Source: Herbiconiux solani NBRC 106740 (GTDB taxonomy: Bacteria > Actinomycetota > Actinomycetes > Actinomycetales > Microbacteriaceae). Taken from it: a DNA stretch of 64,000 bases. Within the stretch, counting starts at the first letter, position 1, and every line of letters starts with the position of its first letter. The position numbers were made by a program, and so were the translations under genes. Below, piece by piece: positions 20,084 to 61,520 of the stretch. The DNA lies in the NCBI RefSeq assembly GCF_001571005.1, contig NZ_BCST01000001.1, forward strand, positions 372,001 through 436,000. The letters run 5' to 3'. Under the pieces are notes generated by a model. That model saw nothing but the letters and a program-made list of their open reading frames with translations. It was not told the origin of the DNA and ran no database searches.

Positions 20084-20160
20084 CGAAGGCCCTCGATCCG
20101 TCACTTGTTGTCGCTAAAGCACCCGGATAGCGACGACAACTGACGGATCGAGGGCCTTCG
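20084..20160. repeat. Dispersed palindromic element, copy 1
   Basis: Arms of 33 nt at 20084-20116 and 20128-20160 pair with two mismatches around an 11-nt loop (AAGCACCCGGA). Inner arm sequence is CTTGTTGTCGCTA; the outer part adds CGAAGGCCCT. The core is shared with copy 2 (61464-61520). It is flanked by degenerate CGAAGGC/GCCTTCG repeats (to about 20187). It lies between an MFS gene and a metalloprotease gene, both on the plus strand. It could act as a terminator, but it lacks a T-run. Confidence 0.85.
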
Positions 20161-20189
20161 GCCTTCGGTCTTCGCCTTCGGCCTTCCGC

Positions 20190-20195
20190 TACAGT
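20190..20195 (+). promoter_or_regulatory. Leaderless-type -10 hexamer for the metalloprotease gene
   Basis: TACAGT, 6 nt before ATG 20202, directly after the repeats that follow palindromic element copy 1. Confidence 0.5.
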
Positions 20196-20201
20196 TCGAG
20201 C

Positions 20202-21062
20202 ATGGTGCGCAGCCCGTTCGTGATCCTCGGCGCCGTGCTGGCCGGCATCCTCGTGCTCGCGGGCGCGCTCTTCGCCGCGGTGAGCGTCGTCGACTCGGCC
20301 GAGGACTTCGCCTCGGGCACCTCGCAGCACGGCGGCCGGGACACGGACATCCGCACGGCCGACGAAGCGCTGACCTACACGATCCGGGACGGCGCACTCG
20401 GCTCGGCCTCGGACGGCGCCGAGCCCGACGCCGTCGCCGAAGAGCTCTGGGGCCGGTTCAGCACGATCATGGGTCCGGATGCCGCACGCATCCGGAGCTT
20501 CGCCGTCTACTCCGACCCCGACTCCTCGTCGCTCGCCTCGGTCTGGCGCGACGAGAAGCGCACGGCGTTCTGGCACGCCGACGTGAACGCCGCCTTCATC
20601 GACGACCGCGACGAGCTGGTGCACACCCTGGTGCACGAGTTCGGCCACATCCTCACCCTCTCGGACGACCAGGTGCCGGTACTATCCGGCGCCTGCCCGA
20701 CCTTCGAGATGGTCGAGGGCTGCCCCGGTGCCGACACCGCGGTGGCCGAGTTCCAGAAGCGCTTCTGGGCTCCCTACGGCGACTCCGTGCCCGCGAACGA
20801 AGGTGAGGACGACGACGAGGTGGAGAGCTTCTTCCTCGACCACGGGTCGTACGACACGTTCGTCACGCGGTACGCGGCCACCAACCCGGTCGAGGATCTC
20901 GCGGAGAGCTGGGCCGAGTACGTACTCTCCGACCAGCCGGGTGTGAGCCTCCGCGACCCCAGCGGCCAGGAGGAGTCCTCGCAGAAGGTCGCGTTCTTCG
21001 CGGAGTTCCCGGCCCTCGCCGCCCAGCGCGACCGCATCCGAACCGCCCTCGACCTCGGCTGA
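20202..21062 (+). CDS. Membrane-anchored putative zinc metalloprotease
   Basis: A 286-residue protein. Residues 6-30 (FVILGAVLAGILVLAGALFA) form an N-terminal signal anchor, the rest is extracytoplasmic. Zincin motif HEFGH at 145-149 within ELVHTLVHEFGHILTLS; a likely third ligand is Glu235 in NPVEDLAESWAEYVLS, the EDxAE pattern seen in several gluzincin-like families. Two Cys (in SGACPTFEMVEGCPG) may form a disulphide. The gene has its own leaderless-type promoter and no obvious partner. The substrate is unknown; I assign activity from the motif only. Confidence 0.82.
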   Translation: MVRSPFVILGAVLAGILVLAGALFAAVSVVDSAEDFASGTSQHGGRDTDIRTADEALTYTIRDGALGSASDGAEPDAVAEELWGRFSTIMGPDAARIRSFAVYSDPDSSSLASVWRDEKRTAFWHADVNAAFIDDRDELVHTLVHEFGHILTLSDDQVPVLSGACPTFEMVEGCPGADTAVAEFQKRFWAPYGDSVPANEGEDDDEVESFFLDHGSYDTFVTRYAATNPVEDLAESWAEYVLSDQPGVSLRDPSGQEESSQKVAFFAEFPALAAQRDRIRTALDLG

Positions 21063-21105
21063 ACGCTGCGCCCTGAGCGCTGACCCCCGCCTCGCGCGAC
21101 CGGGC

Positions 21106-21774
21106 TCAGCGCCGCCGCTCGTGCCGACGCGGCCGAAGCCGATCCGGCGCATCCGTCGCGGGCACGAACTCGCAGGTGAACGTCCCTTCGTACCCGAACA
21201 AGAAGCCGAAGACCCGGTTGTGCACCTCCATCGAGATGCGAAAGACCCCGGCCTCGTCGTCGAAGGACTCGCGGAGGGTCGCCCGTCCGCTGAACAGCAG
21301 CGGGAACCGGAAGGCGACCGGCCCCTCGTAGAACCGCTGGGCGCCCGAGCGCAGGAGGAGCGAGCCGTCGCCAGCCGCCTCGAGCTCGAGGTCGACGGCG
21401 AGGTGCTGGTGGGTGCCGAGGTAGTCGAGCACCTTCGCCCCGTCGAGGATCATCGTCGCGTCGAAGCGGCTGGGCCGACGGCGCACGGAGTACGTGCGCA
21501 CGAACGTGACCGTCTCGCGCCCGTACGGGTCGCGATACGGGTAGTTCTCGATCACGAAGGGCACGTCCTGGCCCACGTCGGCGACGAGGATGTTGCGGAG
21601 CCGCCCGATCTGCAGGAACGGCACCGTCCACCAGGGGCCACGGCGGATGCGCGACATCGTGCCGCGGCCGATGCAGGCGTACCCGGCATCGAGCCCCACG
21701 CCGAACCGGCGCTGCAGCTGCGGGTGCAGTCGGCCGAACTCCTCCCCCATCGCCCGCTGGAAGATCGAGGTCAT
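21106..21774 (-). CDS. DUF4166 family protein
   Basis: A 222-residue soluble protein of the DUF4166 type: FGRLHPQLQRRFGVG near the N-terminus, VPFVIENYPYRDPYGRETVT in the middle, and MEVHNRVFGFLFGYEGTF near the C-terminus. Function unknown; the family often accompanies SRPBCC proteins, as here. Its ATG overlaps the stop of the SRPBCC gene by 4 nt. A lipid or small hydrophobic ligand is a reasonable guess only. Confidence 0.85.
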   Translation of the reverse strand: MTSIFQRAMGEEFGRLHPQLQRRFGVGLDAGYACIGRGTMSRIRRGPWWTVPFLQIGRLRNILVADVGQDVPFVIENYPYRDPYGRETVTFVRTYSVRRRPSRFDATMILDGAKVLDYLGTHQHLAVDLELEAAGDGSLLLRSGAQRFYEGPVAFRFPLLFSGRATLRESFDDEAGVFRISMEVHNRVFGFLFGYEGTFTCEFVPATDAPDRLRPRRHERRR

Positions 21775-22412
21775 GGGGCCTCCAGGGCTGCGAGCGACGC
21801 CGGCGCCCCGCGCATCGCGTCGGCGCGGCCGGGCGGGGTACGGAGGCAGCGGCTCGCGCGGGGACGGTCGGCGCGCCAGAATCGGACGGCCGATGCCATC
21901 GGCCAGCGCTCGGGCGCCACCTCGCTCTCGGCCCAGATGCGCAGCCGGTCGAAGCTCCACGCCGTCATGCGGCCGACGAGAGGCCTGACGACGAGACGGT
22001 CGAGCAGCCCGCCCCAGCCCGGGACGTAGTCGAATCCGGTCACGAAGAGCGTGCCGCGGGCCGTCGGCCGGTACCTCCAGTAGCCGCGCCCGTCGCGGAG
22101 CGGCGAGAGCCGGTCACGGGTGGTGAAGCGCAAGGCCGAGGTGCGCGTGCCGTCGGCCGCCGAGCGGTCGCCGAGGGAGATTCCCGTGCCGGCGATCGTG
22201 TGACCCGGGAGACGGCGCTCGTAGCGGAAGCGGGTGGGGCGGCCGGCGGGCCGTTCAGGGACGTCCTCCACCGGGGCCTCGGGGACGATGCGGCTGAAGC
22301 GGAGATCCCACCGCGTGTGCTGCGCCGGGTCCTGCGTGAGCTCCCAGACACGCTCGACCGGGGCGGCGATCTCGATCGCCACGTAGATCGCGCGGCCGCG
22401 GCGGGAGCTCAT
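21771..22412 (-). CDS. SRPBCC (START-like) family protein
   Basis: A 213-residue protein. Residues 8-150 form a START-like fold: IYVAIEIAAPVERVWELTQD, DPAQHTRWDLRFSRI, and the long C-terminal helix at LLDRLVVRPLVGRMTAWSFD. The last 50 residues are Arg/Ala/Pro rich and may include a second piece of unknown nature. It is the first of a two-gene unit with the DUF4166 protein. TAGGGT lies 6 nt upstream of the ATG, which supports the start. Binding of a hydrophobic ligand is expected from the fold. Confidence 0.85.
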   Translation of the reverse strand: MSSRRGRAIYVAIEIAAPVERVWELTQDPAQHTRWDLRFSRIVPEAPVEDVPERPAGRPTRFRYERRLPGHTIAGTGISLGDRSAADGTRTSALRFTTRDRLSPLRDGRGYWRYRPTARGTLFVTGFDYVPGWGGLLDRLVVRPLVGRMTAWSFDRLRIWAESEVAPERWPMASAVRFWRADRPRASRCLRTPPGRADAMRGAPASLAALEAP

Positions 22413-22418
22413 GACCCG

Positions 22419-22424
22419 ACCCTA
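22419..22424 (-). promoter_or_regulatory. Leaderless-type -10 hexamer for the SRPBCC-DUF4166 unit
   Basis: TAGGGT on the minus strand, 6 nt before ATG 22412. Confidence 0.5.
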
Positions 22425-22525
22425 TCGGCGTGGATGCTGTCCTGCGGGGACGGGCGGACGCTCGCGTCTGTGCTGAACCGGCAAGCGGGTTTGCGCGGGA
22501 GGCGACGCGGCGGCAGGCTGAGGCC

Positions 22526-23320
22526 ATGAACGCGCACATGCCCTCCGGCCCGGACCAGGACCCGACCGAGTTCTGGGAGGAGCTCTACCAGCAGCGCTCC
22601 CGCGTGTGGAGCGGCAAGGCCAACAAGGCTCTGGTCGACATCGCGGGTGACCTGGCTCCCGGCCACGCACTCGATCTAGGCAGCGGCGAGGGCGGCGACG
22701 CCCTCTGGCTGGCCGGCCTCGGCTGGCGCGTCGACGGACTCGAGATCTCCTCCACCGCCCTGGCACGGGCTGTCGAGCACACCCGGGAGCAGGAACGCGA
22801 CCGCGGGCTCGACGAGGGCACGCTGGCCGAGCGCATCCACTGGCGCCAGGCGGACCTCGTCGACTGGGTCCCGGATGCGCAGTACGACCTGGTCTCGGCC
22901 TGCTTCCTGCACTCGCCGGTCGAGTTCCCGCGCGACGCCGTGCTCCGGCGCGCCGCCGACGCAGTGGCTCCCGGCGGGCACCTGCTGGTCGTCGGGCACG
23001 CGGCCTTCCCGCCGTGGTCGGCGATGCACCGCGACGACGACGGCGCTCCGGGCGATGGCGAAGGCGCTGAGCCCGAGGCCGGTCACGACCACGAAGGCGG
23101 CCACGGTCACGCTCCCGAGCACGAGCACGCGGACCACGCCGACCTCCCCTCGGCCGACGAGGTCGCGGCTGCTCTGGCCCTTCCGCCCGCGGAGTGGCGC
23201 GTGCTGGTGAGCGAGAACCGTCCGCGCGACGCCGTCGGGCCCGACGGTCAGGAGGCCGTGATCGACGACGCGGTGCTGCTCATGCAGCGTCTCCCCACCC
23301 CGGGCTTCCCCGCCGCCTGA
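22526..23320 (+). CDS. Class I SAM-dependent methyltransferase with a His-rich insert
   Basis: A 264-residue methyltransferase. Motif I is HALDLGSGEGGDALWLAGLG, motif II GLEISSTALARA, and the post-II acidic region RQADLVDWVPDAQYDLVSAC is followed by FLHSPVEFPRD and DAVAPGGHLLVVGHA. This resembles TehB-like or thiopurine-type small-molecule methyltransferases. After PPWSAMHRDDDG there is an acidic, His-rich stretch (about residues 186-204, including GHDHEGGHGH and EHEHADH, seven His) of a kind seen in Ni/Zn-binding proteins; it is not a usual part of the fold. ATG 22526 is preceded by CAGGCT at 6 nt, a weak leaderless-type box. Substrate unknown. Confidence 0.88.
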   Translation: MNAHMPSGPDQDPTEFWEELYQQRSRVWSGKANKALVDIAGDLAPGHALDLGSGEGGDALWLAGLGWRVDGLEISSTALARAVEHTREQERDRGLDEGTLAERIHWRQADLVDWVPDAQYDLVSACFLHSPVEFPRDAVLRRAADAVAPGGHLLVVGHAAFPPWSAMHRDDDGAPGDGEGAEPEAGHDHEGGHGHAPEHEHADHADLPSADEVAAALALPPAEWRVLVSENRPRDAVGPDGQEAVIDDAVLLMQRLPTPGFPAA

Positions 23321-23336
23321 AACCGACCGGCGCCGC

Positions 23337-23342
23337 TATCCT
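23337..23342 (+). promoter_or_regulatory. Leaderless-type -10 hexamer for the second methyltransferase
   Basis: TATCCT, 7 nt before ATG 23350, located just downstream of the first methyltransferase stop. Confidence 0.5.
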
Positions 23343-23349
23343 GGCGAGC

Positions 23350-24189
23350 ATGGACGAGCACCTCGCGGCCAACCGCGCGAACTGGGACGACCGGGCGGCC
23401 GCCCACGCCGCGCGCGACGGCCTCGGCTACCGGGTCGAGCGCTACGTCGCCGACCGCGACCGCATCTCGGACGTCGTGGCCTTCGACCGCGAGCGGCTGG
23501 GCGACATCCGGGGGGTCCGCGCCGTGCACCTGCAGTGCCACATCGGCACCGACACCCTGTCGCTCGGCCGGCTCGGCGCCCGCGTCACGGGCCTCGACTT
23601 CTCTTCCGTAGCCGTCGCCGAGGCCAGGGCGCTCGTCGCCGAGAGCGGAGACGCGGGTTCGGTCGACTTCGTGGTCTCCGACGTCGACGGCGCGACCACC
23701 GTGCTCGGCACCGGCGGATTCGATCTCGTCTACACCGGCATTGGAGCGCTCTGCTGGCTCCCGAGCATCGAGCGCTGGGCCGGCGTCGTGGCCGCCCTGC
23801 TGAAGCCCGGCGGCCGCCTCTTCCTGCGGGAGGGGCATCCGATCCTCTGGACCATGGACGAGACGCTCGACGACGACCTGCACCTCCGCCACCCGTACTT
23901 CGAGCAGGAGACACCCCTGTCGTGGGACGACGCCTCCTCCTACGTCGCCACGGGCCGGCCGCTGACCGCCACGAAGACCTACGAGTGGAACCACGGTCTC
24001 GGCGAGATCGTCACGGCACTGCTCGATCGCGGCCTCGTGCTGACCATGCTCGTCGAGCACGACAGCGTGCCCTGGGAGGCGCTCCCCGGGCAGATGACCG
24101 AGCGGCCGGACGGCGAGTTCGCCCTCGCCGAGCGGGCCGGCGTCGCGCCGCTCTCGTTCACCCTGCAGGCCGAGAAGCCCCTGCGGTAG
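23350..24189 (+). CDS. Class I SAM-dependent methyltransferase
   Basis: A 279-residue protein. It begins with the NRANWDDRAAAHAARDG helix typical of this actinobacterial branch, and motif I is unusual in being VHLQCHIGTDTLSLGRLGAR rather than a Gly-rich DxGxG. GLDFSSVAVAEARALVAE is motif II, and LKPGGRLFLREGHPILW is motif IV/V. The HLQCHIGTDT variant is shared by a known group of annotated methyltransferases. The substrate is unknown. It is not homologous in detail to the His-rich enzyme immediately upstream. Confidence 0.88.
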   Translation: MDEHLAANRANWDDRAAAHAARDGLGYRVERYVADRDRISDVVAFDRERLGDIRGVRAVHLQCHIGTDTLSLGRLGARVTGLDFSSVAVAEARALVAESGDAGSVDFVVSDVDGATTVLGTGGFDLVYTGIGALCWLPSIERWAGVVAALLKPGGRLFLREGHPILWTMDETLDDDLHLRHPYFEQETPLSWDDASSYVATGRPLTATKTYEWNHGLGEIVTALLDRGLVLTMLVEHDSVPWEALPGQMTERPDGEFALAERAGVAPLSFTLQAEKPLR

Positions 24190-24251
24190 ACGCCCGCGGA
24201 GACGCGCTGCGGGAGACGCTCCTGCGGGACACGCCCTGCGGTGGATGCCGC
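24181..24251. repeat. 15-bp imperfect tandem repeat across a stop codon
   Basis: Units CTGCGGTAGACGCCC, CTGCGGGAGACGCTC, CTGCGGGACACGCCC and CTGCGGTGGATGCCG, with an 11-nt partial after the first. The first unit holds the final codons and TAG stop of the methyltransferase gene. The array fills the gap to the convergent ABC-F gene. Confidence 0.8.
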
Positions 24252-24258
24252 CGGTCGC

Positions 24259-25851
24259 TCAGAGCGCGCCGCTGGCCGCCTGCTCCGAGACCCGCGGGCT
24301 GCCGTCGAAGACGAGCAGACGGTCGGCGAGCTTGTCGACGAAGAAACGGTCGTGCGAGACAACCATCACCGCACCCGGGAAGTGCGTGAGCGCCCGTTCC
24401 ATCACCTGGGTGCTCGTGATGTCGAGGTGGTTGGTCGGCTCGTCGAGCACGATCACGGCCGCTCCGGACAGCAGGCACTGGGCGATCGCGACGCGCGCCC
24501 GCTGGCCGCCGGACAGGGTGCCGATCTTCTGCTGCAGATCCGCATCCGAGAACTGGAGCATCGCCAGGAACCGGGCGACGCTCTTCTTCGTCGCGCTGAA
24601 CGCGAGCGAGTCCGGGTAGGCGTTCACGGCGTGGCCGACCGAGTCGGCGAGATCGAGCTCGGCGTAGACGCGGTTGTACGAGACGAACCGGGCGCCCTTC
24701 GCCCAGCGCACCTGCCCGGCATCCGCCTCGGTCTCGCCGGTCAGCACGTCGAGGAGCGTGGACTTGCCCGATCCGTTCGAGCCCAGCACCGCCACCCGGT
24801 CACCGCGGTGCAGGCTGAAGCTCAGATCTTCGAACAGGGGCGCCCCACCGAAGCCCTTCGTGAGCTTCACGACCTCGAGCAGGTCGTTGCTCACCCGGAG
24901 CCCGCCGTAGATGTCGGTGATGATCTGGTCGATCGGCCGCGGTGCCTGCCGCTTCTTGATGTCGGCGAGCCTCCGGGCCACCGCGTTCGCGGGGTTCCGT
25001 GCCGCCTCGCGCCGCGCCGTGCTCGCCGCCTGCTCGTAGGCCAGCAGCTCCTCTTCGTGCGCGAACTGCCGCTCGAGCATCTTCAGCCGCGACTGCTTGG
25101 CGTGCACATAGGCCGAGTAGTCGCCCTCGTACTCCTGCAGGCGGTAGTTCTCGATCTCGACGATGCGGGTGACGACCCCGTCGAGGAACTGGCGGTCGTG
25201 CGTGACGACGAGCACGGCGCCCTGGTAGCGGGCCAGCCAGTTCTCGATCCAGCGCACCCCATCGAGGTCGAGGAAGTTCGTCGGCTCGTCGAGCAGCAGT
25301 ACGTCGGGCGACTGGATGAGGATCTGCGCGAGCGCAGCGCGGTTGCGCCAGCCGCCGGAGAGGCGGTCGACCGGCAGTGCCCTCCGCTCCTCGTCGAAGC
25401 CGAGGCTGGTGAGCACGGTGTCGATGGCGTTCTCGAACGACCAGCCGTCGATCGCATCCATCCGCTCGAAGAGCTCGCCCTGCTCGGTGAGCAGTGCGGT
25501 CATCGCGGCGTCGTCCATCGGCACCGCGAGCTGCTCGCCGATCGCGTCCAGTCGCGCCTGGGTCTCGTGCACGGCGGCGAAGTGGTCGTTCAGGATGTCA
25601 CGGATGCTGCGATCCCCGTCGAGCTCGGAGAACTGCGAGAAGTAGCCGATCGTCGTGCCCAGGGTCACGTCGACGGTGCCGCTCGTCGGTTCCTGACGGC
25701 CGAGCACCAGCTCGAGGAGGCTGGACTTGCCGGTGCCGTTCTTGCCGATCAGCCCGATCCGGTCACCCGGCCGGAGCTTCAGGAAAGCCTCCCTCAGCAC
25801 GGGGCGGCCGTCGAATTCGAGGGAGACGTCGTTCAGGCGGATCAGACTCAC
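24259..25851 (-). CDS. ABC-F family ATPase
   Basis: A 530-residue ABC-F protein: two ABC domains in tandem, no membrane segments. Domain 1 has Walker A GLIGKNGTGKSS, signature LSGGWRNRAAL and Walker B LLLDEPTNFLDLD; domain 2 has VLGSNGSGKSTLL, LSGGQRARVAI and IVLDEPTNHLDI. The linker (about 225-300) is a charged helical hairpin with RLKMLERQFAHEEELLAYEQ, the P-site-reaching element of ABC-F ribosome factors. Many act in translation; some give ribosome-protection resistance. This one cannot be assigned to either. GTG 25851 is chosen because of TAGGCT 8 nt upstream. Confidence 0.93.
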   Translation of the reverse strand: MSLIRLNDVSLEFDGRPVLREAFLKLRPGDRIGLIGKNGTGKSSLLELVLGRQEPTSGTVDVTLGTTIGYFSQFSELDGDRSIRDILNDHFAAVHETQARLDAIGEQLAVPMDDAAMTALLTEQGELFERMDAIDGWSFENAIDTVLTSLGFDEERRALPVDRLSGGWRNRAALAQILIQSPDVLLLDEPTNFLDLDGVRWIENWLARYQGAVLVVTHDRQFLDGVVTRIVEIENYRLQEYEGDYSAYVHAKQSRLKMLERQFAHEEELLAYEQAASTARREAARNPANAVARRLADIKKRQAPRPIDQIITDIYGGLRVSNDLLEVVKLTKGFGGAPLFEDLSFSLHRGDRVAVLGSNGSGKSTLLDVLTGETEADAGQVRWAKGARFVSYNRVYAELDLADSVGHAVNAYPDSLAFSATKKSVARFLAMLQFSDADLQQKIGTLSGGQRARVAIAQCLLSGAAVIVLDEPTNHLDITSTQVMERALTHFPGAVMVVSHDRFFVDKLADRLLVFDGSPRVSEQAASGAL

Positions 25852-25859
25852 GGAGGTCC

Positions 25860-25865
25860 AGCCTA
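25860..25865 (-). promoter_or_regulatory. Leaderless-type -10 hexamer for the ABC-F gene
   Basis: TAGGCT on the minus strand, 8 nt before GTG 25851; it lies within the end of the UDG-family gene. Confidence 0.45.
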
Positions 25866-26606
25866 CGGGGGGCCGGGAGCACCGGGGTCGCGGCCGGTTT
25901 CCTCCCCGGCTTGCTTTCCGACTTCCTCGCCGGCCGACGCGCCGGCACCGGGATGGCCCGGCCCCCGATCGCCGTCGAGCGCCGAACGGACCAGCGTCGC
26001 GAGTCTCGGAGCCGTCTCGGCCTCGAACCAAGGGTTGCGGGCACGCCAGCCGAGCGTGAGCGGCGAGGGATGCACGATCGGGAAGTAGGGCAGGTAGGTC
26101 TCGGCCGCCCGCACGGTCTCGGTGAGCCCCATGCCGCCGCGCCGGCCCAGGTAGTGACGCTGGGCGTAGGCGCCGATCAGGATGGTCAGCCGCACCTGGG
26201 TGAGCTGCTCGAGCACGAGTGGATGCCAGGTGTCGGCGAAACCGGACCGCGGCGGCAGGTCGCCGCTCGGCGCCTTACCCGGGTAATAGAAGTCCATCGG
26301 GAGGATCGCGAGGTTCGACGGGTCGTAGAACTCTTCGTCGGTGAGGCCGAGCCAGGAGCGAAGCCGGATGCCGCTGGGGTCGTTCCAGGGGATCCCGGTC
26401 TCCTGCGCCCGCCGGCCGGGAGCCTGGCTGATGATGAGCACCCGAGAGTGCTCGGAGGCGACGAACAGCGGCGCGTAACCGGCCTCGCGGGCCCAGGCGT
26501 TGGACTCGTGGGACGCGACCTCGCGCCGCAACTCGTCGAAGACGGAGGGAACCGCCTCTGCAGGCCCGCGCCGGCCCTCAATATCCTCCGGCGCGGCCTG
26601 GCTCAC
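25863..26606 (-). CDS. Uracil-DNA glycosylase superfamily protein
   Basis: A 247-residue protein of the small UDG-like family. LFVASEHSRVLIISQAPGRR holds the first motif (QAPGRRAQETGIPWNDPSG, comparable with the GxxPG loop of family 4/5 enzymes), ILPMDFYYPGK follows, and FPIVHPSPLTLGW is the C-terminal HPSPL motif. The family is usually annotated as uracil-DNA glycosylase, but the catalytic Asp of family 1 is not present, so the real substrate is open. The last 40 residues are Gly/Pro rich and disordered. The ATG overlaps the DUF3072 stop by 4 nt. Confidence 0.88.
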   Translation of the reverse strand: MSQAAPEDIEGRRGPAEAVPSVFDELRREVASHESNAWAREAGYAPLFVASEHSRVLIISQAPGRRAQETGIPWNDPSGIRLRSWLGLTDEEFYDPSNLAILPMDFYYPGKAPSGDLPPRSGFADTWHPLVLEQLTQVRLTILIGAYAQRHYLGRRGGMGLTETVRAAETYLPYFPIVHPSPLTLGWRARNPWFEAETAPRLATLVRSALDGDRGPGHPGAGASAGEEVGKQAGEETGRDPGAPGPP

Positions 26607-26908
26607 TGACCGCGGCCCGTGAGCTTCTGCAGGCGGTCGATGTGCTCGGAGGCCTCGGCCTTGGTGAGGTCGGCGGGGAGCTCTTCGCCGGCCTCGCGGA
26701 GCAGAGTATCGAGGTAGCTCTTCTGCGGACCGGTCATCGGCTCGTCTCCGGTGACCCAGTCTTCGGGGTCTTTGCTGGCCGAGGACGAGTCGGGGCCGGA
26801 GCCGCCGAGCATCTCGACGTCAGGGGCCTCGGCGATCTGCTCGCTCTCGGAGAAGGATTCGGGTGCGCCGTCGGCCTGCGCGGGGGACTTGTCGTGTGCA
26901 TCGCTCAT
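26603..26908 (-). CDS. DUF3072 domain protein
   Basis: A 101-residue protein. The N-terminal 50 residues are acidic and disordered; residues 55-101 are the DUF3072 domain (MTGPQKSYLDTLLREAGEEL, then LTKAEASEHIDRLQKLTGRG). A SAP-like helical DNA- or protein-binding role has been suggested from the fold but is not known. It starts at ATG 26908 with TAGGGT 7 nt upstream and is co-transcribed with the downstream UDG-family gene. Confidence 0.88.
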   Translation of the reverse strand: MSDAHDKSPAQADGAPESFSESEQIAEAPDVEMLGGSGPDSSSASKDPEDWVTGDEPMTGPQKSYLDTLLREAGEELPADLTKAEASEHIDRLQKLTGRGQ

Positions 26909-26915
26909 GCCCGGA

Positions 26916-26921
26916 ACCCTA
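26916..26921 (-). promoter_or_regulatory. Leaderless-type -10 hexamer for the DUF3072-UDG unit
   Basis: TAGGGT on the minus strand, 7 nt before ATG 26908; divergent from a similar box for the DUF2945 gene. Confidence 0.5.
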
Positions 26922-26989
26922 CGCCGGGCCACCGACACCGGCATCGGCCGCCAAGCAGGAGTCGGGCACCGGGAGCCGCCCACCAGGAG

Positions 26990-26995
26990 TACGGT
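26990..26995 (+). promoter_or_regulatory. Leaderless-type -10 hexamer for the DUF2945 gene
   Basis: TACGGT, 7 nt before ATG 27003. Confidence 0.5.
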
Positions 26996-27002
26996 CGCCC
27001 GC

Positions 27003-27215
27003 ATGAGCGAGAATCCATCCCGCGGAGACAAGGTCTCCTGGAAGACGCACGCCACCGAGACCACCGGCACCGTCGAGAAGAAGATCACCGACGACACCGA
27101 GGCCGCGGGCCGGACCGTCAGGGCCAGCGACGACGACCCGCAGTTCCTGGTGAAGAGCGACAAGACCGGCAAGGAGGCCGTGCACAAGCCGGACGCGCTC
27201 CGCCCGGAGGACTGA
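27003..27215 (+). CDS. DUF2945 (hypervirulence-associated TUDOR-like) protein
   Basis: A 70-residue protein matching DUF2945: RGDKVSWKTHATETTGTVEK for the first strands, then DPQFLVKSDKTGKEAVHKPD and the closing ALRPED. The family folds as a small SH3/Tudor-like barrel and is common in bacteria and fungi; its role is unclear. It is divergent from the DUF3072 gene and convergent with the next gene. Confidence 0.9.
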   Translation: MSENPSRGDKVSWKTHATETTGTVEKKITDDTEAAGRTVRASDDDPQFLVKSDKTGKEAVHKPDALRPED

Positions 27216-27270
27216 GCCCGCCGCCGGGGCGACTGAACAAGCGACCCGAGCGACCGGATCGACTAGCGGA

Positions 27271-28125: not shown

Positions 28126-28138
28126 GCGAGATCCTTTC

Positions 28139-28216
28139 GGGTCGAGAGTTCGGGTCGAGAGTTCGGGTCGAGAGTTCGGGTCGAGGGTTCGGGTCGAGAG
28201 TTCGGGTCCAGGGTCG
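28139..28216. repeat. 13-bp tandem repeat, five units plus one degenerate
   Basis: GGGTCGAGAGTTC repeats at 28139, 28152, 28165, 28178 (one change) and 28191, then a degenerate copy at 28204. It fills most of the 107-bp gap between the TerC stop and the start of the downstream gene. Confidence 0.92.
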
Positions 28217-28232
28217 GGGAGGATGCCCCAGT

Positions 28233-29261: not shown

Positions 29262-29271
29262 GGAGGTACTC

Positions 29272-29396: not shown

Positions 29397-29427
29397 TGAG
29401 ACCAGCCTACCCCATGAGCCGGATCGG

Positions 29428-29970: not shown

Positions 29971-29977
29971 GGGCATC

Positions 29978-29983
29978 ACTGTA
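29978..29983 (-). promoter_or_regulatory. Leaderless-type -10 hexamer deciding the LBD-only 1 start
   Basis: TACAGT on the minus strand, 7 nt before GTG 29970 and only 1 nt before ATG 29976, which favours the GTG as initiation codon. Confidence 0.5.
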
Positions 29984-52528: not shown

Positions 52529-52531
52529 GCT
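52526..52531 (+). promoter_or_regulatory. Leaderless-type -10 hexamer for a GNAT gene
   Basis: TAGGCT, 6 nt before ATG 52538; it overlaps the TAG stop of the preceding PLP enzyme. Confidence 0.5.
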
Positions 52532-52537
52532 GGCCGG

Positions 52538-53344: not shown

Positions 53345-53348
53345 GCAG

Positions 53349-53379
53349 GACCGCCGCTGAGCCGCCCGGCCCGGCGGTC
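53349..53379. terminator. Candidate terminator between GNAT and nucleoside hydrolase
   Basis: GACCGCCG (53349-53356) pairs with CGGCGGTC (53372-53379) over a 15-nt loop in the 46-bp gap between convergent genes. Confidence 0.45.
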
Positions 53380-53390
53380 GCCGACGGGCG

Positions 53391-54392: not shown

Positions 54393-54453
54393 CGTGGTGC
54401 TTTCTGCTGGGGATCGGGTGTCATCGCGTTCCCGGCACACCGGGCGCATCGGC

Positions 54454-55383
54454 TCAGGCGGCGGGGGTGGGTGCGGACGTGGTCACGGCGGCCGCGGTGC
54501 GGCGGCGCGGCAGGCGGATGCGGGTCGCGATCAGCACGAGCAGCGTGATGGCGTACGGCGCCGCATCGGTCAGCTGCTGCGGCGCCCCGATGCCCTGCAG
54601 CCGGAAGCCGAGCGCCTCGGCGGCGCCGAAGCCCAGGCAGGCGACCGGCAGCCAGAGCGGGCGTCCGCCGACCAGCATCACGGCCGCGACCGCGATCCAG
54701 CCGCGGCCGGCCGTCATGTTCTCGGTGAACACCGTCACGTTGCCGAGCGCGAGCTGGGCGCCGGCGATCCCGCAGAGCGCTCCGCCGACGATCGTGACCC
54801 AGGTCTGGTAGCGCGCGACCTCGACACCGAGACTCGCCGCGGCATCCGGATGCTCGCCCACGCCCCGCAGTCGCAGCCCCGCCGGCGAGACCTTCAGCCA
54901 GATGCCCGCCGCGGCGATCACCACGAAGGCGAAGGGAACGAGAACGGTCTGCCCGGAGAAGATCGGCCCGATCACCGGGACGTCGGTGAGGAACGTCATC
55001 TTCGGCAGCCCCTGCAGCTCGCGCGGCGAGAACGATCCCGAGACCCCGAACAGCACCCGCAGCAGGAAGCCGGTGAGCCCGATGGCGAGCAGGTTGGTGC
55101 CGATCGCGATGATGATCGGGTCGGCCTTCCAGCGCGCGGCGCCCACGGCCAGGATCACCGAGAACAGGGCGGTGCTGAGCACAGCCGTGAGCAGCCCACC
55201 CCAGGCGCTGCCGGTGTAGTAGCTGCCGGCCACCGCGGCGAACGCACCCCAGAGCATCTGACCCTCGAGGGCGATGTTGAAGACGCCGGCCTGCGCCGAG
55301 AGCGCGCCCGCGAGGGCGGCGTAGAGGATGGGCGTCGCCGCGAGCAGCACGGCCGCCACGAAGCCGAGTTCGAACACGTGCAT
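54454..55383 (-). CDS. Nucleoside ABC transporter permease 2 (BMP/NupQ type)
   Basis: A 309-residue branched-type permease with about nine helices. LAATPILYAALAGALSAQAG with VFNIALEGQMLWGAFAAVAG is the core signature of the Bmp/Nup permease II, and YQTWVTIVGGALCGIAGAQL follows in the second half. The ATG overlaps the stop of permease 1 (TGATG). Confidence 0.93.
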   Translation of the reverse strand: MHVFELGFVAAVLLAATPILYAALAGALSAQAGVFNIALEGQMLWGAFAAVAGSYYTGSAWGGLLTAVLSTALFSVILAVGAARWKADPIIIAIGTNLLAIGLTGFLLRVLFGVSGSFSPRELQGLPKMTFLTDVPVIGPIFSGQTVLVPFAFVVIAAAGIWLKVSPAGLRLRGVGEHPDAAASLGVEVARYQTWVTIVGGALCGIAGAQLALGNVTVFTENMTAGRGWIAVAAVMLVGGRPLWLPVACLGFGAAEALGFRLQGIGAPQQLTDAAPYAITLLVLIATRIRLPRRRTAAAVTTSAPTPAA

Positions 55384-56489
55384 CAGGCGGAGCTCCGTTC
55401 GGTGCGGCGCTGGTCGAGCACCGTGCGGAGCGCCAGCACGACGATCACGACGCCTTGCAGCACGTCCGAGAGTTGACGCGGCACGTCGGCCGAGCGCTCC
55501 ATGGCGGCGCCCCCGACCTGCAGCACGGTGAACAGGATGGCGGTCACCGGGATGAGCGCGGGCCGGCCGCCGGCCAGCAGGGCCGCTGCGAGCCCGGCGA
55601 AGGTGTAGCCGGGCGAGATCAGCGCGCCGTCGATCAGGCGGAACGGCGACGACATGACCATCACCGCGCCCACCACGCCGGCGGCGGCACCGGCCGCGGC
55701 CATCGCGCCGAGCGCGAGCCGGCCCACGCGCACCCCGCCGTAGGCGCCGAAGCGGCGGTTCGCCCCGACCACGCGGAGTTCGAAGCCGACCGCGCTCCGC
55801 GAATCGACGAGCCAGAACACCACGAGCAGGGCGAGGATGATCAGCAGGCCGACGTTGGAGTAGGAGAGGTCGCCGAGCGCCCACATCCGCGCATCCTGGG
55901 GCAGCCGCGGCGTCTGAGCCACGGCGGCGCCCGCCTCGCCGAGCGGGAAGCGCACGAGGTAGGAGACCACGGCGACCGCGATCGGCGACAGCAGCAGGGT
56001 CGAGATGATGATCGGGATGCCGAAGCGGGTGGCGAGCGGTGCCGAGATCGCCCCGAAGGCGCCCGAGACGACGGCTGCGCCGAGAACCGCGAGCGGGATG
56101 ACGATGGGGCCGGGCAGCGGCAGGTTGCCCGCGATGACGGCCGCGGTGAGCCCGCCGAGCACGAGCTGGCCGTTGCCGCCGAGGTTGAACTCGCCCATCC
56201 GGAGCGGGATGGCGGCCGCGAGGGCCATGCCGATGATGAAGCCCCAGACCGAGAAGGTGTAATCGAGCGACCCGGGTTCGAGGGCGCCGGAGATCACGGC
56301 CGCGTAGGCGGTGACCGGGTCGAGCCCGGCGGCCAGGATGATCACGGCGCCGATCAGGAGCGCCAGCACGACGGCGCCGACCGGCACCACGGCGGGGTGC
56401 CGGAGGGCCGCACGGACGAGCCGCGCGCCCGGGCGGCCGGGTGCCGGCGCCTCGGGCCCGGTGGCGGGCGGGGTCGTCGTCGAGGTCAT
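55383..56489 (-). CDS. Nucleoside ABC transporter permease 1 (BMP/NupP type)
   Basis: A 368-residue permease with about ten helices. Landmarks are IPLRMGEFNLGGNGQLVLGG, FGIPIIISTLLLSPIAVAVV and FELRVVGANRRFGAYGGVRV, all typical of the BMP-associated BPD_transp_2 family. Its ATG overlaps the ATPase stop by 4 nt, and its own stop is shared with permease 2. Confidence 0.93.
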   Translation of the reverse strand: MTSTTTPPATGPEAPAPGRPGARLVRAALRHPAVVPVGAVVLALLIGAVIILAAGLDPVTAYAAVISGALEPGSLDYTFSVWGFIIGMALAAAIPLRMGEFNLGGNGQLVLGGLTAAVIAGNLPLPGPIVIPLAVLGAAVVSGAFGAISAPLATRFGIPIIISTLLLSPIAVAVVSYLVRFPLGEAGAAVAQTPRLPQDARMWALGDLSYSNVGLLIILALLVVFWLVDSRSAVGFELRVVGANRRFGAYGGVRVGRLALGAMAAAGAAAGVVGAVMVMSSPFRLIDGALISPGYTFAGLAAALLAGGRPALIPVTAILFTVLQVGGAAMERSADVPRQLSDVLQGVVIVVLALRTVLDQRRTERSSA

Positions 56490-58162
56490 GACTCGGGATC
56501 CTCAGGGTCGGGTTCGGACGCCGCCTCGGCGGCGCCGGCCATGGCCGCGCCGATCCGGGCGGTGGTGGCCTCGTCGGCCGGGAACTCGGCCACGATCCGG
56601 CCGGCGTACATCACCAGGATGCGGTCGGCCAGCGCGAGCAGTTCGCTGATCTCGTGCGAGACGAGCAGCAGCGCTCCCCCGTCGGCCCGGTGCTCGAGCA
56701 GCCGGCCGTGGATGGACTCGATCGCGCCGACGTCGACACCCTGGGTGGGCTGCTCGGCGATCACGAGCGGGGCGCGGTGCGAGAGCTCGCGGGCGATCAC
56801 CACCTTCTGGGCGTTGCCGCCGGAGAGGGCGCCGATCGGCTGCAGCTCGCCCGAGGTGCGCACGTCGTAGTCGCGGATGAGCTCCCGCGCCCGGGCGCGC
56901 TCGGCCCGGATCGACATCCAGCCGCGGCCGACGCCCGAGGCGGAGCCGATCGGCGGGGTGCGGTGGTGCCCGAGGGTCACGTTCTCGGCGACCGACATCG
57001 TGACGGCGCTGCCCTCGCCGCGGCGGTCCTCGGGGATCACGGCGAGTCCGAGGGCCCGCCGGTCGCGGACCGAGCGGCCCGCGACGTCGTCGCCGAGGAT
57101 CCGCACGCGTCCGCTCCGCGCGGGCAGGGTGCCGAGCACCGCGGCGACGAGCTCGTGCTGGCCGTTGCCGGAGACCCCGGCGATGCCGACGATCTCGCCC
57201 GCGCGCACCTCGAAGGAGACGTCCGAGACGGCGGCGACACCCCCTCCGCCCGGGGACGTGCGCGACCCCGAGCCGGAACCCGCTCCGGAGTCGCCCACCG
57301 TGAGGCCCGACACCTCGAGCACCGTGGCGCCCGGGGTCCCGGTGCGGGGGTTCCGCACCTCGTCGATCGCGCGACCGGTCATCGCGTGCACGAGCGAAGC
57401 GGCGGTCGCCTCCGCGGTCGCGAACCGCCCGGTCACCCGCCCGTCGCGGAGCACCGTCACCTCGTCGCTGACCGAGAGCACCTCGTGGATCTTGTGCGTC
57501 ACGAGCACGACCGTCGCTCCGCCCTCGGCAGCTCGGCGGATCACCGCGAACAACGAGGTCACCTCGTTCGGCGTGAGCACGGCGGTCGGCTCGTCGAGGA
57601 TGAGGATGCGGGCGTCACGGTGCAGGGCCTTCAGGATCTCGACCCGCTGCCGGGCGCCGGCGGAGAGCGAGCCGACCACCGCATCCGGATCGGACTCGAG
57701 CCCGTACCGCTCGCTCAGCTCGCGCACCCGGGCCGCGGCCGCCGCGCGGTCGACCACGCCGCGGCCGAAGAACCCCGGCCGGCGCGGCTCGGCCCCGTAG
57801 ACGACGTTCTCGGCCACGGTCATCGTGTCGAAGAGCCGGAAGTGCTGGTGCACCATGCCGAGCCCGGCCGCGATCGCGTCGAGCGGGCCGGCGAAGCGCA
57901 CCGGGCGGCCGTCGATCCGGATCTCCCCCGAATCCGGTTCGAGCAGACCGAACAGCATCGACATGAGCGTGGACTTGCCGGCACCGTTCTCCCCCATCAC
58001 GGCGTGGACCGTGCCGCGCCGGAGCACGAGGTCGACGTCGGCGTTCGCGACGACCGCCCCGAAGCGCTTGCCGATGCCGATCAGCTCGACGGCGGGCACG
58101 GCGGATGCCGCGGGCCCGTCGAGGCCCGCGGCATCCGCGTCGTTCCCAGAGGTCGAGGTCAT
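56486..58162 (-). CDS. Nucleoside ABC transporter ATPase (double ABC, BMP type)
   Basis: A 558-residue protein with two ABC domains, as in simple-sugar and nucleoside importers. Domain 1: Walker A MGENGAGKST, Walker B ILILDEPTAVLTP, switch VLVTHKIHEV, and signature variant LSAGARQRVEIL. Domain 2 (about 285-540): GVSGNGQHEL in place of a full Walker A, signature SGGNAQKVVIAREL and EQPTQGVDVGA, as is normal for the degenerate second half. The ATG overlaps the lipoprotein stop by 4 nt. A Gly/Ser-rich insert (AGSGSGSRTSPGGGG) separates the domains. Confidence 0.94.
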   Translation of the reverse strand: MTSTSGNDADAAGLDGPAASAVPAVELIGIGKRFGAVVANADVDLVLRRGTVHAVMGENGAGKSTLMSMLFGLLEPDSGEIRIDGRPVRFAGPLDAIAAGLGMVHQHFRLFDTMTVAENVVYGAEPRRPGFFGRGVVDRAAAAARVRELSERYGLESDPDAVVGSLSAGARQRVEILKALHRDARILILDEPTAVLTPNEVTSLFAVIRRAAEGGATVVLVTHKIHEVLSVSDEVTVLRDGRVTGRFATAEATAASLVHAMTGRAIDEVRNPRTGTPGATVLEVSGLTVGDSGAGSGSGSRTSPGGGGVAAVSDVSFEVRAGEIVGIAGVSGNGQHELVAAVLGTLPARSGRVRILGDDVAGRSVRDRRALGLAVIPEDRRGEGSAVTMSVAENVTLGHHRTPPIGSASGVGRGWMSIRAERARARELIRDYDVRTSGELQPIGALSGGNAQKVVIARELSHRAPLVIAEQPTQGVDVGAIESIHGRLLEHRADGGALLLVSHEISELLALADRILVMYAGRIVAEFPADEATTARIGAAMAGAAEAASEPDPEDPES

Positions 58163-59214
58163 CCAGCGGTCAGCGGGTCGGTGACGACGACCTGGCCCGA
58201 GACGATCTGGTCGCGGACGGCCGCGACCTTCTCGATCACGTCGGGGTGGTCGGCGATCAGGCACTGCGAGTCGGCCACGCCGTCTTCCAGACCGGTGAGG
58301 CTGACGCCTCCCTCGGCCAGGCCGTAGGAGGTGAATCCGCCCGTCGTGCCGTCGAGGATGTCGCCGACCGAGTTCACGAGCGCCACATCGACACGCTTGA
58401 TCGCGTTGTCGACGACGTTGCCCGGCGACTCGAGGCACTGGTTGGTGTCGACGCCGAAGGCCTTGAAGCCGCTCTCCGCCGCCGCCTCGAAGACGCCCGT
58501 GTTGCCGCCGGAGGCCGCGGCCTGCACGTAGTCGACCCCGCCGTCGGCGAGGATCTGCGCCTGCGCCTTCGCGCGGGCCTGGTCGCCGAACGGGTTGTCG
58601 CCGCCGACGAACTGGGCCGAGGTGGCCACCCCGGGGTTCACGCTCTTCGCGCCGGCGTAGAACGGGTCGATCCAGCGGTGGATGAAGGGGGTGTCGAGCG
58701 CGGCGACCACGCCGACGTTGTTCTTCTGGGTCAGCAGCCCCGCCTCGACGCCGGTCAGGTACGTGGCCTCGTACTCCTTGAAGGTGGCGGCGGTGAGGTT
58801 CGGCGTCGGGTTCTCGGCCGAGGTGTCGATCAAGAGGAACTGCTGGTCGGGGTTGTCGGCCGCGGCCTCGGTGAACTGGTCGAGCACGCTGAACGAGACG
58901 CCGATGATGATGCTGGGCTTCTCGCGGATCGCCGCATCCAGGTTCTGCTGGATGCTCGTGGGGTCTTCGCTCTCGTACACGTCGACCGAGGCGTCGTACT
59001 TCTCCCCGGCCTCCTTCGCGCCGTCGGAGGCGAGCTGGAGGAAGTTGTTCGAGCCGATCGGCGTCGGGGTGATCAGGATGATCGAGTTCGCGTTGTCGCC
59101 GTCTCCGGCGGCGCCGGTGCTGGACGCACCGCCCGAGCTCGAGCACGCGGCGACGGAGACGAGGAGGCCGGCCGCGAGGGCGACGGCGGCTCCCCGGCGT
59201 GCGAGTGAAGACAT
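58159..59214 (-). CDS. BMP family nucleoside-binding lipoprotein
   Basis: A 351-residue lipoprotein with signal peptide ending LLVSVAAC (lipobox Cys near residue 24). The BMP (PF02608) domain shows LASDGAKEAGEKYDASVDVY, NPDQQFLLIDTSAENPTPN, and EYEATYLTGVEAGLLTQKNN, plus GVDTNQCLESPGN, a TmpC/PnrA-like nucleoside-site region. AAGGGG precedes the ATG. As first gene of the operon it should deliver nucleosides to the permeases. An AT-richer patch near 59295 may hold the promoter. Confidence 0.94.
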   Translation of the reverse strand: MSSLARRGAAVALAAGLLVSVAACSSSGGASSTGAAGDGDNANSIILITPTPIGSNNFLQLASDGAKEAGEKYDASVDVYESEDPTSIQQNLDAAIREKPSIIIGVSFSVLDQFTEAAADNPDQQFLLIDTSAENPTPNLTAATFKEYEATYLTGVEAGLLTQKNNVGVVAALDTPFIHRWIDPFYAGAKSVNPGVATSAQFVGGDNPFGDQARAKAQAQILADGGVDYVQAAASGGNTGVFEAAAESGFKAFGVDTNQCLESPGNVVDNAIKRVDVALVNSVGDILDGTTGGFTSYGLAEGGVSLTGLEDGVADSQCLIADHPDVIEKVAAVRDQIVSGQVVVTDPLTAG

Positions 59215-59385
59215 GGTTTTCCCCTTACGGAAACACGGTGCTGTGGATGCGGCCGGCCGAACGGGGTCTGGTCACCCGATCCGGCCGCCCTTCCATGTTA
59301 AACGAGACTGCGGGTCCCAACGCGGTCGGGACGTCACAGAGCGCAACACGATCGCGGGACCGGCCTCGGGGGAAGGCCCGGCGAC

Positions 59386-60978
59386 TCAGAGGCTCTGCCC
59401 GATGTCCCACAGCCGGTCGGTGCGCCCGTTCAAGGCCTCGGCGACGGCGATGGCCTGGCCGTCCGAGAGCGAGGCGACGTAGTCGATCACGCCTCGGCCG
59501 CGGCCGAGACGGCGGAGGTGCGCCTGCCCGGTGTCCTCGACGAGGTACGGGCGCTCGGCGGCGAGCCGCTGGTAGCCGTCGGTCGCCAGGTCGACCATCT
59601 CGATCAGCCGGCGCGGAACCCGCTTGCGGTCGTGGTCGTCGTCGAGCCACTCGGTGAACGCGCTGACCAGTCCGACCAGCACCTGGCTGAGGCCCCGCTG
59701 GTACATCGCGATGTCGGGCCGGTTGAGGATGAAGTGCTTGTGCACGAACTTCAGCACCTTCACCTCGTGCCAGGCCCGGGTGTCCAGCGTGACGATGCCG
59801 GTGCGCGGGGTGTCGGGCGGAGCCGGCACGATCGAGCGCTCGAAGTGCGCGATCCAGGTGCTGGTGAACGTCGAGAGCCGGCGCTCGGCCGCGATCGAGC
59901 CGTCGAACACGGTCGAGAGCAGGCCCTCGACCAGGTCGTCCGAGACCACCCGCACGGCCTCGGCGAAGGCGTCGTCGTCGGCGATCCACGGGTCGTCCCG
60001 GTGGATGCGGCGACGCAGCGCCTCCAGGCCCTCGCCCGCGTGGTTGCGCACGCCGGCCAGCTCGAGCTCGGGGGCCGCGAGCAGGCGCAGCTCGGTCGCG
60101 TTCTCCAGCCAGCCCTTGAACTCACGCGAGACCGCGACCTGGCTGAGGATCCCTGCCCGGTAGAAGTCGTCGACGTCGTGGATCGAGTAGGCGATGTCGT
60201 CGGCGATGTCCATGACCGAGCACTCCAGCGACTGCTCCCAGGGCGCGAGGCCCGGGGCCGAGCGCCTGGCCTCCTCGAGGTCGTCCTGCTCGAGGAAGTA
60301 GGCGGAGTACTTGCGGGCGACGACCTCGCCGTCGACCCGCTTGAGACCCCTGGGGAGTCCCGGGCCGTGCGCCTCGCCGAGATCCAGACCCTCCATCGCG
60401 GGGGTCCACGGGTACTTCGACACCGCGGTCCGCACGGCCGCCGTGAGGTTGAGGCCCTGGGTCGCGCCGTCGCAGACGTCGAGCGCGGTCAGGATGCGGT
60501 AGGTCTGCGCGTTGCCCTCGAAGCCGTCGGCGAGCCCGAGGGTGTCACGGGCGATCCGGTTCAGCACGTTCTCGCCGAGGTGACCGAACGGCGGGTGGCC
60601 GAGGTCGTGGGCACTGGCGGCCGCCTGCACGACGACCGCGTCGCATCCGCCCGGCGAGTGCTGCGGCGAGAGGGCGGAGGTCGTGCCGACGAGCCCGTTG
60701 TCGACCGCGACCGCGATCGCGCGCGACACGGCGGTGACCTTGAGCGAGTGGGTGAGCCGGTTGTGGATGAGCGGGCTCGCGCCGGCCTGCGAGATCACCT
60801 GCGTGACCGCCGACAGCCGGGAGAAGTACGGCGAGAACCGCACCCGCTCGAGGTCGATCCGGTACTCGGGGTTGTAGTCGGCGCGCTGGATCTCGTCCAG
60901 CGCCTCCGGCTGGGCGCGGGCCACCCGGGCGTCCATGTTCACTCTGGTCTGGAGGTCCATCCGTTCATTCTGCGCCAT
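59386..60978 (-). CDS. dgt: Deoxyguanosinetriphosphate triphosphohydrolase (dGTPase)
   Basis: A 530-residue HD-superfamily dNTPase. HNRLTHSLKVTAVSRA carries the first metal His, AASAHDLGHPPFGHLGENVL the HD pair and the conserved PPFGH, EGNAQTYRILTALD the nucleotide pocket, and SVMDIADDIAYSIHDVDDFY the last Asp. It converts dGTP (or other dNTPs) to the nucleoside and triphosphate. ATG 60978 and ATG 60960 are both possible. No anti-phage partner genes are adjacent, so a nucleotide-pool role is assumed. Confidence 0.94.
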   Translation of the reverse strand: MAQNERMDLQTRVNMDARVARAQPEALDEIQRADYNPEYRIDLERVRFSPYFSRLSAVTQVISQAGASPLIHNRLTHSLKVTAVSRAIAVAVDNGLVGTTSALSPQHSPGGCDAVVVQAAASAHDLGHPPFGHLGENVLNRIARDTLGLADGFEGNAQTYRILTALDVCDGATQGLNLTAAVRTAVSKYPWTPAMEGLDLGEAHGPGLPRGLKRVDGEVVARKYSAYFLEQDDLEEARRSAPGLAPWEQSLECSVMDIADDIAYSIHDVDDFYRAGILSQVAVSREFKGWLENATELRLLAAPELELAGVRNHAGEGLEALRRRIHRDDPWIADDDAFAEAVRVVSDDLVEGLLSTVFDGSIAAERRLSTFTSTWIAHFERSIVPAPPDTPRTGIVTLDTRAWHEVKVLKFVHKHFILNRPDIAMYQRGLSQVLVGLVSAFTEWLDDDHDRKRVPRRLIEMVDLATDGYQRLAAERPYLVEDTGQAHLRRLGRGRGVIDYVASLSDGQAIAVAEALNGRTDRLWDIGQSL

Positions 60979-61033
60979 CGGCGCGTTTCCGCACCTCGGC
61001 GCCGTGCCGTGCACGCCCGGCGGGCGGCGCCGT

Positions 61034-61039
61034 TAGCCT
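61034..61039 (+). promoter_or_regulatory. Leaderless-type -10 hexamer for the HTH-only protein
   Basis: TAGCCT, 6 nt before GTG 61046. Confidence 0.5.
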
Positions 61040-61045
61040 GGGGGC

Positions 61046-61390
61046 GTGGACATCGATCAGCTGAAGCACTTCCTCGCCGTCGTCGACGAGGGGCACTGGT
61101 CGCGGGCCGCCAACGCGGCGCACGTCTCCAAGGCCACCGTGCAGGCATCCGTCGCCGCGCTCGAGGCCGAGCGGGGCGAACGCCTCGTGGTCCCGGATGC
61201 CGACGACTCGGGCGAGCTGTCGCTCACCGAGGCCGGGCTCGCCTTCCGGTCGGAGGCCCGCGCCCGCGTCCAGAGCGCGCCGCCGGCGGTGCCGAAGGCC
61301 GGGGGCAAGGCCAAGGCCAGCAAGGGCCGCGGCCGGGCGCCCGTGGTCAAGGGCGAACCGAAGCCCTTCAAGAAGCGTCAGGGTCGCTGA
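61046..61390 (+). CDS. HTH-only LysR-like protein with a basic tail
   Basis: A 114-residue protein. Residues 1-66 match the LysR winged HTH: DIDQLKHFLAVVDEGHWSRA, ANAAHVSKATVQASVAALEA, ERGERLVVPD and the wing at ELSLTEAG. The effector-binding domain is absent: after about residue 72 there is a Pro/Lys/Arg-rich tail (KAGGKAKASKGRGRAPVVKG) ending in KPFKKRQGR. The gene is intact with a good promoter, so it does not look like a fresh truncation. DNA binding without ligand control is a fair guess. The palindromic element copy 2 follows 73 nt past its stop. Confidence 0.85.
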   Translation: MDIDQLKHFLAVVDEGHWSRAANAAHVSKATVQASVAALEAERGERLVVPDADDSGELSLTEAGLAFRSEARARVQSAPPAVPKAGGKAKASKGRGRAPVVKGEPKPFKKRQGR

Positions 61391-61410
61391 CCCGAAGCCC
61401 CGGCTCTACG

Positions 61411-61463
61411 CCGAATGCCCGGGCGCTACCCCCGAATGCCCGGGCGCTACCCCCGAACGCCCG
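61411..61463. repeat. 21-bp tandem repeat, 2.5 units
   Basis: Two identical 21-bp units (61411-61431 and 61432-61452) starting CCGAATGCCCGGGCG, and an 11-nt partial (61453-61463), preceded by a degenerate 19-nt unit from 61392. It ends exactly where the palindromic element begins. Confidence 0.9.
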
Positions 61464-61520
61464 CGATCCGTCAGTTGTTGTCGCTAAAGCGGAGCGATAG
61501 CGACAACAACTGACGGATCG
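61464..61520. repeat. Dispersed palindromic element, copy 2
   Basis: Perfect 23-bp arms at 61464-61486 and 61498-61520 (inner part CCGTCAGTTGTTGTCGCTA) around an 11-nt loop AAGCGGAGCGA. Both arms, the loop length and the loop start AAGC agree with copy 1 at 20084-20160. AGGGC follows the right arm in both copies. It lies between convergent genes. Confidence 0.88.

Follow-up and report, generated by a model that had tools for sequence, protein, structure and literature searches.

A dispersed long-armed palindrome at gene 3′ ends in Herbiconiux

Bacterial miniature inverted-repeat transposable elements (MITEs) include Correia, ERIC and YPAL. Here we describe a long-armed palindrome that occurs twice in a 64,000-nt stretch of the Herbiconiux solani NBRC 106740 genome (the window; contig NZ_BCST01000001.1, C1:372001-436000 of our genome G000, an assembly of 3.85 Mb in 18 contigs), and compare it with the closest described systems. 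According to the available part of one account, repetitive extragenic palindromes (REPs) of the GTAG and CGTC superfamilies are dispersed palindromes with several families per genome, lineage-specific, and located mostly downstream of genes or near both 3′ ends of convergent pairs (PMC3733652). They measure 20-40 bp; CGTC REPs have stems of 8-9 bp, loops of 4-5 nt and an unpaired terminal tag, are without a dedicated transposase, and their spread is given in the same part as an open question (PMC3733652). The phyla that this part names do not include Actinobacteria, and untagged REP-like repeats in M. tuberculosis are mentioned there (PMC3733652). REPINs, as far as the accessible text describes them, consist of two inverted conserved arms with a less conserved spacer between them, are copied as one unit, show compensatory changes in the hairpin and accompany genes of REP-associated tyrosine transposases (RAYTs) (PMC3116915). 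DNA uptake signals of Neisseria and Pasteurellaceae, in the accessible excerpt, form hairpin terminators when paired in inverted orientation and are enriched between convergent genes (PMC1852404). The initial clustering of a survey of stem-loop families takes in three high-GC Gram-positive genomes; Microbacteriaceae were not noticed in the survey's available sections (PMC2267715). Among the top-ranked results of a partial literature collection we found no account of these palindromes in Microbacteriaceae.

A sequence-only reading of the window had described the same palindrome at two sites, with an 11-nt loop starting AAGC and AGGGC behind it. Indeed, both copies have such a loop, and GAGGGC lies 3′ of either right arm. 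The arms of copy 1 are 35 nt each, 94% complementary and separated by 11 nt; in copy 2 the inner arms pair fully, and GCCC/GGGC lies beyond one mismatch. RNA from either strand of either copy folds into a single long hairpin (-54 to -67 kcal/mol, z -11.7 to -14.8). The likeness is beyond chance, as had been claimed: CGTCAGTTGTTGTCGCTA, with ≤3 mismatches, has four matches in the window compared with a mean of 0.04 in shuffles, and none of 100 shuffles reached four.

Genome-wide, CGTCASTTGTTGTCGCTA (≤3 mismatches) matched 40 times in forward and 40 times in reverse orientation, every forward match having a reverse partner (40 pairs); a reversed-pattern control gave two and one. Unpaired single or widely spaced arms were absent from these matches in the host genome; no search aimed at a parent transposon was made. 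The element is ~77 nt long and almost entirely arm, with two 33-35-nt arms around a loop of ~11 nt. Its consensus is CGACTGTCCTCGAYCCGTCASTTGTTGTCGCTA, the loop and the inverse of the arm, with a mean column identity of 82% in an alignment (A1) of 39 of the 40 copies, one with a 10-nt loop, from which the most diverged copy (C5:285463) was left out. Conservation fades over arm positions 31-38, its limit lying near position 34, and is absent further out; the copies stand in unrelated surroundings and have no homology outside ~60-77 nt. No conserved bases were found outside the arms, where we sought an unpaired GTAG/CGTC foot tag; CGTC lies inside the stem. Only a few other copies have a loop starting AAGC, which is not a family trait. 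The loops (A1 columns 34-44) are mostly asymmetric, starting AA or TT and ending GGA or GA, and thus the otherwise symmetric element has a direction. A covariance model (R1) recovered the same 40 copies and, on C3 and C11, seven weaker matches (E 1.7e-7 to 0.005), which are diverged copies or another family. These weak matches lie at C3 168787-168968, 175239-175431 and 356561-356620 and at C11 55862-56130, some of them grouped in stretches of a few hundred bases. Convergent junctions of G000 (C5 157461-157516, 226026-226085 and 345002-345065) also carry long palindromes unlike this one in sequence, as do several on C2 of another Herbiconiux genome, G202; AAATARCGAGGACCG recurs in one such palindrome of each. 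Several palindrome families seem to coexist in the same genomes.

Nearly all of the 40 copies lie close behind a gene end. Genes flanking them are convergent in 26 cases, co-directional in 12 and divergent in 2, and 11 of the 12 co-directional copies begin 1-40 nt past the upstream stop. With genes called by a codon-usage script, distances are approximations, and both divergent sites could be miscalls. Convergent pairs make up 13 of 69 neighbouring pairs in the window and 55 of 380 in 400 kb of contig C5, a background from which 26/40 differs strongly (Fisher, P = 3e-6 and P = 2e-11, respectively); the context count covers 40 copies, the last added by hand, and the Fisher and mismatch tests cover 39 own copies. 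The upstream plus-strand stops of the two window copies, placed earlier at 40-75 nt, were measured at 38 nt (copy 1) and 68 nt (copy 2), with the next gene downstream co-directional at copy 1 and convergent at copy 2. At 64 sites of another genus (g45), the flanking genes are convergent in 34 cases, co-directional in 29 and divergent in 1.

To call the palindrome an element "of this genome" proved too narrow. At E≤0.1, R1 matched all 16 Herbiconiux genomes, from 2 rows in G011 (the weakest, E 0.02) to 91 in G000; rows count each palindrome on both strands, so that sites are about half the rows. Of 150 Microbacteriaceae genomes, 40 (in 32 of 85 genera) matched at E≤0.01 under more stringent filtering, in which weak matches are lost; R1 scores pairing, and some of these genomes may carry unrelated palindromes. 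Among 50 family matches inspected, many contain a core resembling CGA...G.CACTTGT.GTCGC, with letters that differ by lineage; some lack it and are perhaps unrelated. None of 198 other genomes of the family contains the host's exact inner core. When GTDB genomes were scanned with a pattern, 22 stretches matched: 11 belong to H. ginsengi (each matching on both strands), 1 to H. oxytropis, and 10 are isolated hits in unrelated taxa, apparently fortuitous. The sequence-only reading had set beforehand that two copies alone, with none in relatives, would speak against a dispersed element; we found 40 copies in the host genome and related palindromes in the genus and family.

In g45, R1 gave 109 rows in G045, 107 in G171 (~54 and ~53 sites) and one in G116 (at most 1 copy). 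The 64 g45 sites (31 G045 and 20 G171 loci) have near-identical arms and often near-identical loops. At 14 element positions common to G045 and G171, identity was 97.3% in the arms, 83.5% in the loop, 62.8% in the adjacent 25 nt and 81.2% at 150-350 nt (simple global alignment), with main flanking blocks at 87-95% (blastn); the arms were found under a mismatch limit that favours conserved ones, and the comparison covers element-bearing loci, in which lost copies are invisible. Even so, the 14 positions predate the split of the two genomes, and their arms are kept up either through selection or through copying from elsewhere.

We followed two sites, picked for conserved flanking genes and not at random, through the genus. 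The L046 junction, where a SpoU methylase gene faces a DUF4032 gene, was found in 16/16 Herbiconiux genomes. Five of them (G000, G208, G202, G205 and G155) carry long palindromes of differing sequence there, G093 has a small hairpin, in eight the two genes are -4 to 23 nt apart, and G200 has a 1,076-nt gap with other sequence; in G204 the junction is read as an outer-stem remnant. The L048 junction, one flanking gene of which we take to be radA-like, was found in 15/16 genomes, with the second gene not found in 5 of these 15. The family element is present in G000 only, G206 and G210 have another palindrome in common, G155 looks decayed, and the remainder have short hairpins or none. Of the element loci retrieved from relatives, four share a junction with an own copy (L035/L100, L043/L085, L046/L117 and L049/L080).

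G000, G202 and G207 were also compared over 400 kb each. In G202, two palindromes occupy junctions that have GC-rich hairpins in both other genomes (for example, GAAGCCCCCTC...GAGGGGGCTTC), and the junction lengths were 84 versus 93 and 40 nt in one case and 81 versus 80 and 94 nt in the other. At these junctions, then, a long palindrome replaces the ordinary hairpin and is not added to it. Of the window-family sites on C5, one has only a weak hairpin in G202; at another the stops overlap in G207, and G202 has another palindrome. The gene after copy 1 was found in 4/16 genomes; in the three relatives its upstream neighbourhood differs and contains no such palindrome. The gene that converges on copy 2 was found in 10/16, and in the nine relatives the LysR neighbour was not found. 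The orthologous comparison at the two window sites is uninformative.

On balance, we favour the reading that this is a dispersed REP/REPIN-like palindrome which takes the usual position of terminators at gene 3′ ends. Its place and the replacement of ordinary hairpins suggest that it probably helps to end transcription from both sides. The hairpin, formed in transcripts of either strand, would end or protect the RNA (as a bidirectional terminator or a 3′-end hairpin), and old copies would give rise to new ones through a trans-acting or recombination process other than RAYT. In 52 sites of other Herbiconiux genomes, 87.4% of stem cells are paired compared with 67.6% in 300 shuffles (maximum 69.6%), and the middle of the arm changes symmetrically with pairing kept (alignment fitted to the model, one strand per site; the G011 match, below threshold, was left out).

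Several observations weigh against this reading. No T-run (U-tract) follows the stem and no terminator-like site was called at either window copy; any termination would, therefore, act without the classical tail. The earlier description as terminator-type is upheld by gene context and, where long palindromes in general are concerned, by the ordinary hairpins at orthologous junctions, and fails on the U-tract. The two hairpin-replacing G202 palindromes differ in sequence type from the window's family. Hairpins scoring ≥10 stand at only 14/51 convergent junctions in the 400 kb of G000, most being without one (15/51 in G202 and 15/63 in G207; 3, 0 and 0, respectively, in shuffles). In the host genome the arms vary almost independently, with 84.3% of cells paired compared with 83.4% in shuffles (35 of 500 reach the value), and at one column either arm has C or G irrespective of the other, so that 25 of 39 copies are unpaired there. 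On one reading, the host's copies are recent descendants of a small number of sources whose arms already differed; the alternative is a protein reading each arm. G-U and A-C mismatches on the RNA-sense strand of co-directional sites are equal (44 versus 45), which gives no sign of selection on that strand. Borders, where the sequence-only reading had proposed to look for target duplications, gave no excess of them: in 528 border/length combinations at 39 own and 64 other-genus sites, the best had at most 1-2 matching pairs. Nor was a copying enzyme found in a Y1_Tnp search of G000 and 35 genomes, and spread in trans, as suggested earlier, is something that we infer with no candidate factor found.

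RAYT-driven spread was considered and rejected: Y1_Tnp (PF01797) is absent from G000 and present in 1/35 genomes, G011, which has hardly any element; Y1_Tnp relatives too diverged for the PF01797 model could escape this search. Carriage by phages or plasmids was looked for in two weak tests, in which the 81-nt copy 1 was unmatched in plasmids or phages and one exact symmetric pattern was unmatched in IMG/VR.

A wider proposal, which we make only tentatively, is that Microbacteriaceae have an old lineage of self-propagating bidirectional terminators with non-RAYT spread. Its members, long palindromes, would land or survive only between convergent stops or just past a gene, replace the resident terminator and then be kept because the cell has come to need them, their arms changing symmetrically in each lineage. 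In this actinobacterial case, copies are comparable at orthologous junctions, two close species keep the arms in place, and three g45 genomes have ~54, ~53 and at most 1 copy, which makes the copying step and the terminator role directly testable.

We consider it rather unlikely that the palindrome is a selfish miniature mobile element, of the MITE or REPIN kind, that has no terminator role and is seen at gene ends only because insertions elsewhere were lost. Copying across loci, the range of copy number within g45 and the turnover at orthologous junctions are all in line with such an element, and a place after stop codons is also known for REPs in the available part of their description (PMC3733652). 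Inert relics, however, would not be expected to keep arms 97.3% identical at the 14 G045/G171 positions while flanks diverge, ordinary hairpins are replaced and not retained beside the palindrome, and neither a target duplication nor a Y1 transposase was found. Decidedly improbable, in our view, is the homogenization of separately arisen terminators by gene conversion between copies, without transposition. It would suit the 14 common positions, arms that are alike inside a genome and different between species, and the exchange of palindrome type at one junction. Yet the gap of -4 to 23 nt at the orthologous junctions of several relatives leaves nothing to convert, the copies have ~60-77 nt in common with no homology outside, and the shared G045/G171 positions come only from loci bearing the element in both, where absence could not be seen. 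That the palindrome is a two-fold symmetric site for a DNA-binding protein (a road-block or chromosome organization) and not a hairpin is very hard to credit: the independently varying arms of the host genome, with C or G in one column of each, are as such a site would have them, but the symmetric pair-keeping changes at the relatives' 52 sites and the strong 3′-end placement are not. Chance likeness of two unrelated terminator hairpins, to which the ordinary hairpins at some convergent junctions might lend colour, is dismissed by 40 copies at 82% mean column identity and near-identical loops in another genus.

The surroundings of the two window copies are listed below. The product of the gene before copy 2 combines a LysR-type DNA-binding part with a lysine-rich tail, and no effector domain was found in it. 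The local tandem repeats noted earlier are present as the perfect 21-nt duplication at copy 2 and as direct repeats of 13-15 nt near copy 1. Part of the outer arm is duplicated in tandem beside some elements (window 61411-61452, L035 ~2560-2600 and L131 ~1920-1945), which points to replication slippage at these hairpins. Another convergent junction of the window (11005-11039) is filled by an ordinary perfect 14-bp GC-rich hairpin. The window had no match over the gathering score in Rfam 15.

Table 1. The two palindromes and adjoining features, in window coordinates
Feature	Coordinates	Strand	Remarks
Copy 1, palindrome	20082-20162; arms 20082-20116 and 20128-20162, loop 20117-20127	.	Member of the 40-copy family
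Copy 2, palindrome	61459-61525; inner arms 61464-61486 and 61498-61520, loop 61487-61497, outer GCCC/GGGC	.	Member of the 40-copy family
MFS transporter gene, ends 38 nt before copy 1	18715..20043	+	Pfam MFS_1, E 2.3e-29
Hypothetical protein gene, starts 39 nt after copy 1	20202..21062	+	Zinc peptidase family matches, all below cut-off
Gene of 115-aa protein with LysR-type helix-turn-helix, ends 68 nt before copy 2	61043..61390	+	Pfam HTH_1, E 3.3e-13
Convergent 484-aa gene, stop 19 nt after copy 2, without Pfam match	61545..62999	-	
Perfect 21-nt tandem duplication adjoining copy 2, start resembling the outer arm	61411..61452	.	

Set against known systems, the earlier "REP/MITE-like" holds as an analogy and not as membership, with no Y1_Tnp in the host genome, no tag outside the stem and no target duplication. 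Like MITEs, the Herbiconiux element is short, foldable, bounded by inverted repeats and found beside genes; in contrast to them, it is without target duplication, is almost all arm, and no parent transposon was seen, a dedicated search not having been made. Uptake signals, in the accessible excerpt, are ~9-11 nt long with generally at least 1,000 occurrences, whereas the Herbiconiux arm is ~33 nt, has 40 copies and is always paired (PMC1852404); an uptake signal was ruled out, since arms are never single in the host genome. With REPINs, as partly described in the source above, it has in common two inverted arms that form a hairpin and a single unit, all 40 being paired; unlike them, no RAYT was found with it, and single arms were not found. 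With REPs, within the portion of their description available, it shares dispersal, lineage specificity and a place downstream of genes and near convergent 3′ ends, but its stem is ~33 bp, its loop ~11 nt and its total length ~77 nt, with CGTC inside the stem and no unpaired foot tag. The Herbiconiux element thus resembles REPs and REPINs in spread and place and uptake-signal terminators in likely role, and falls under the strict definition of none of them.

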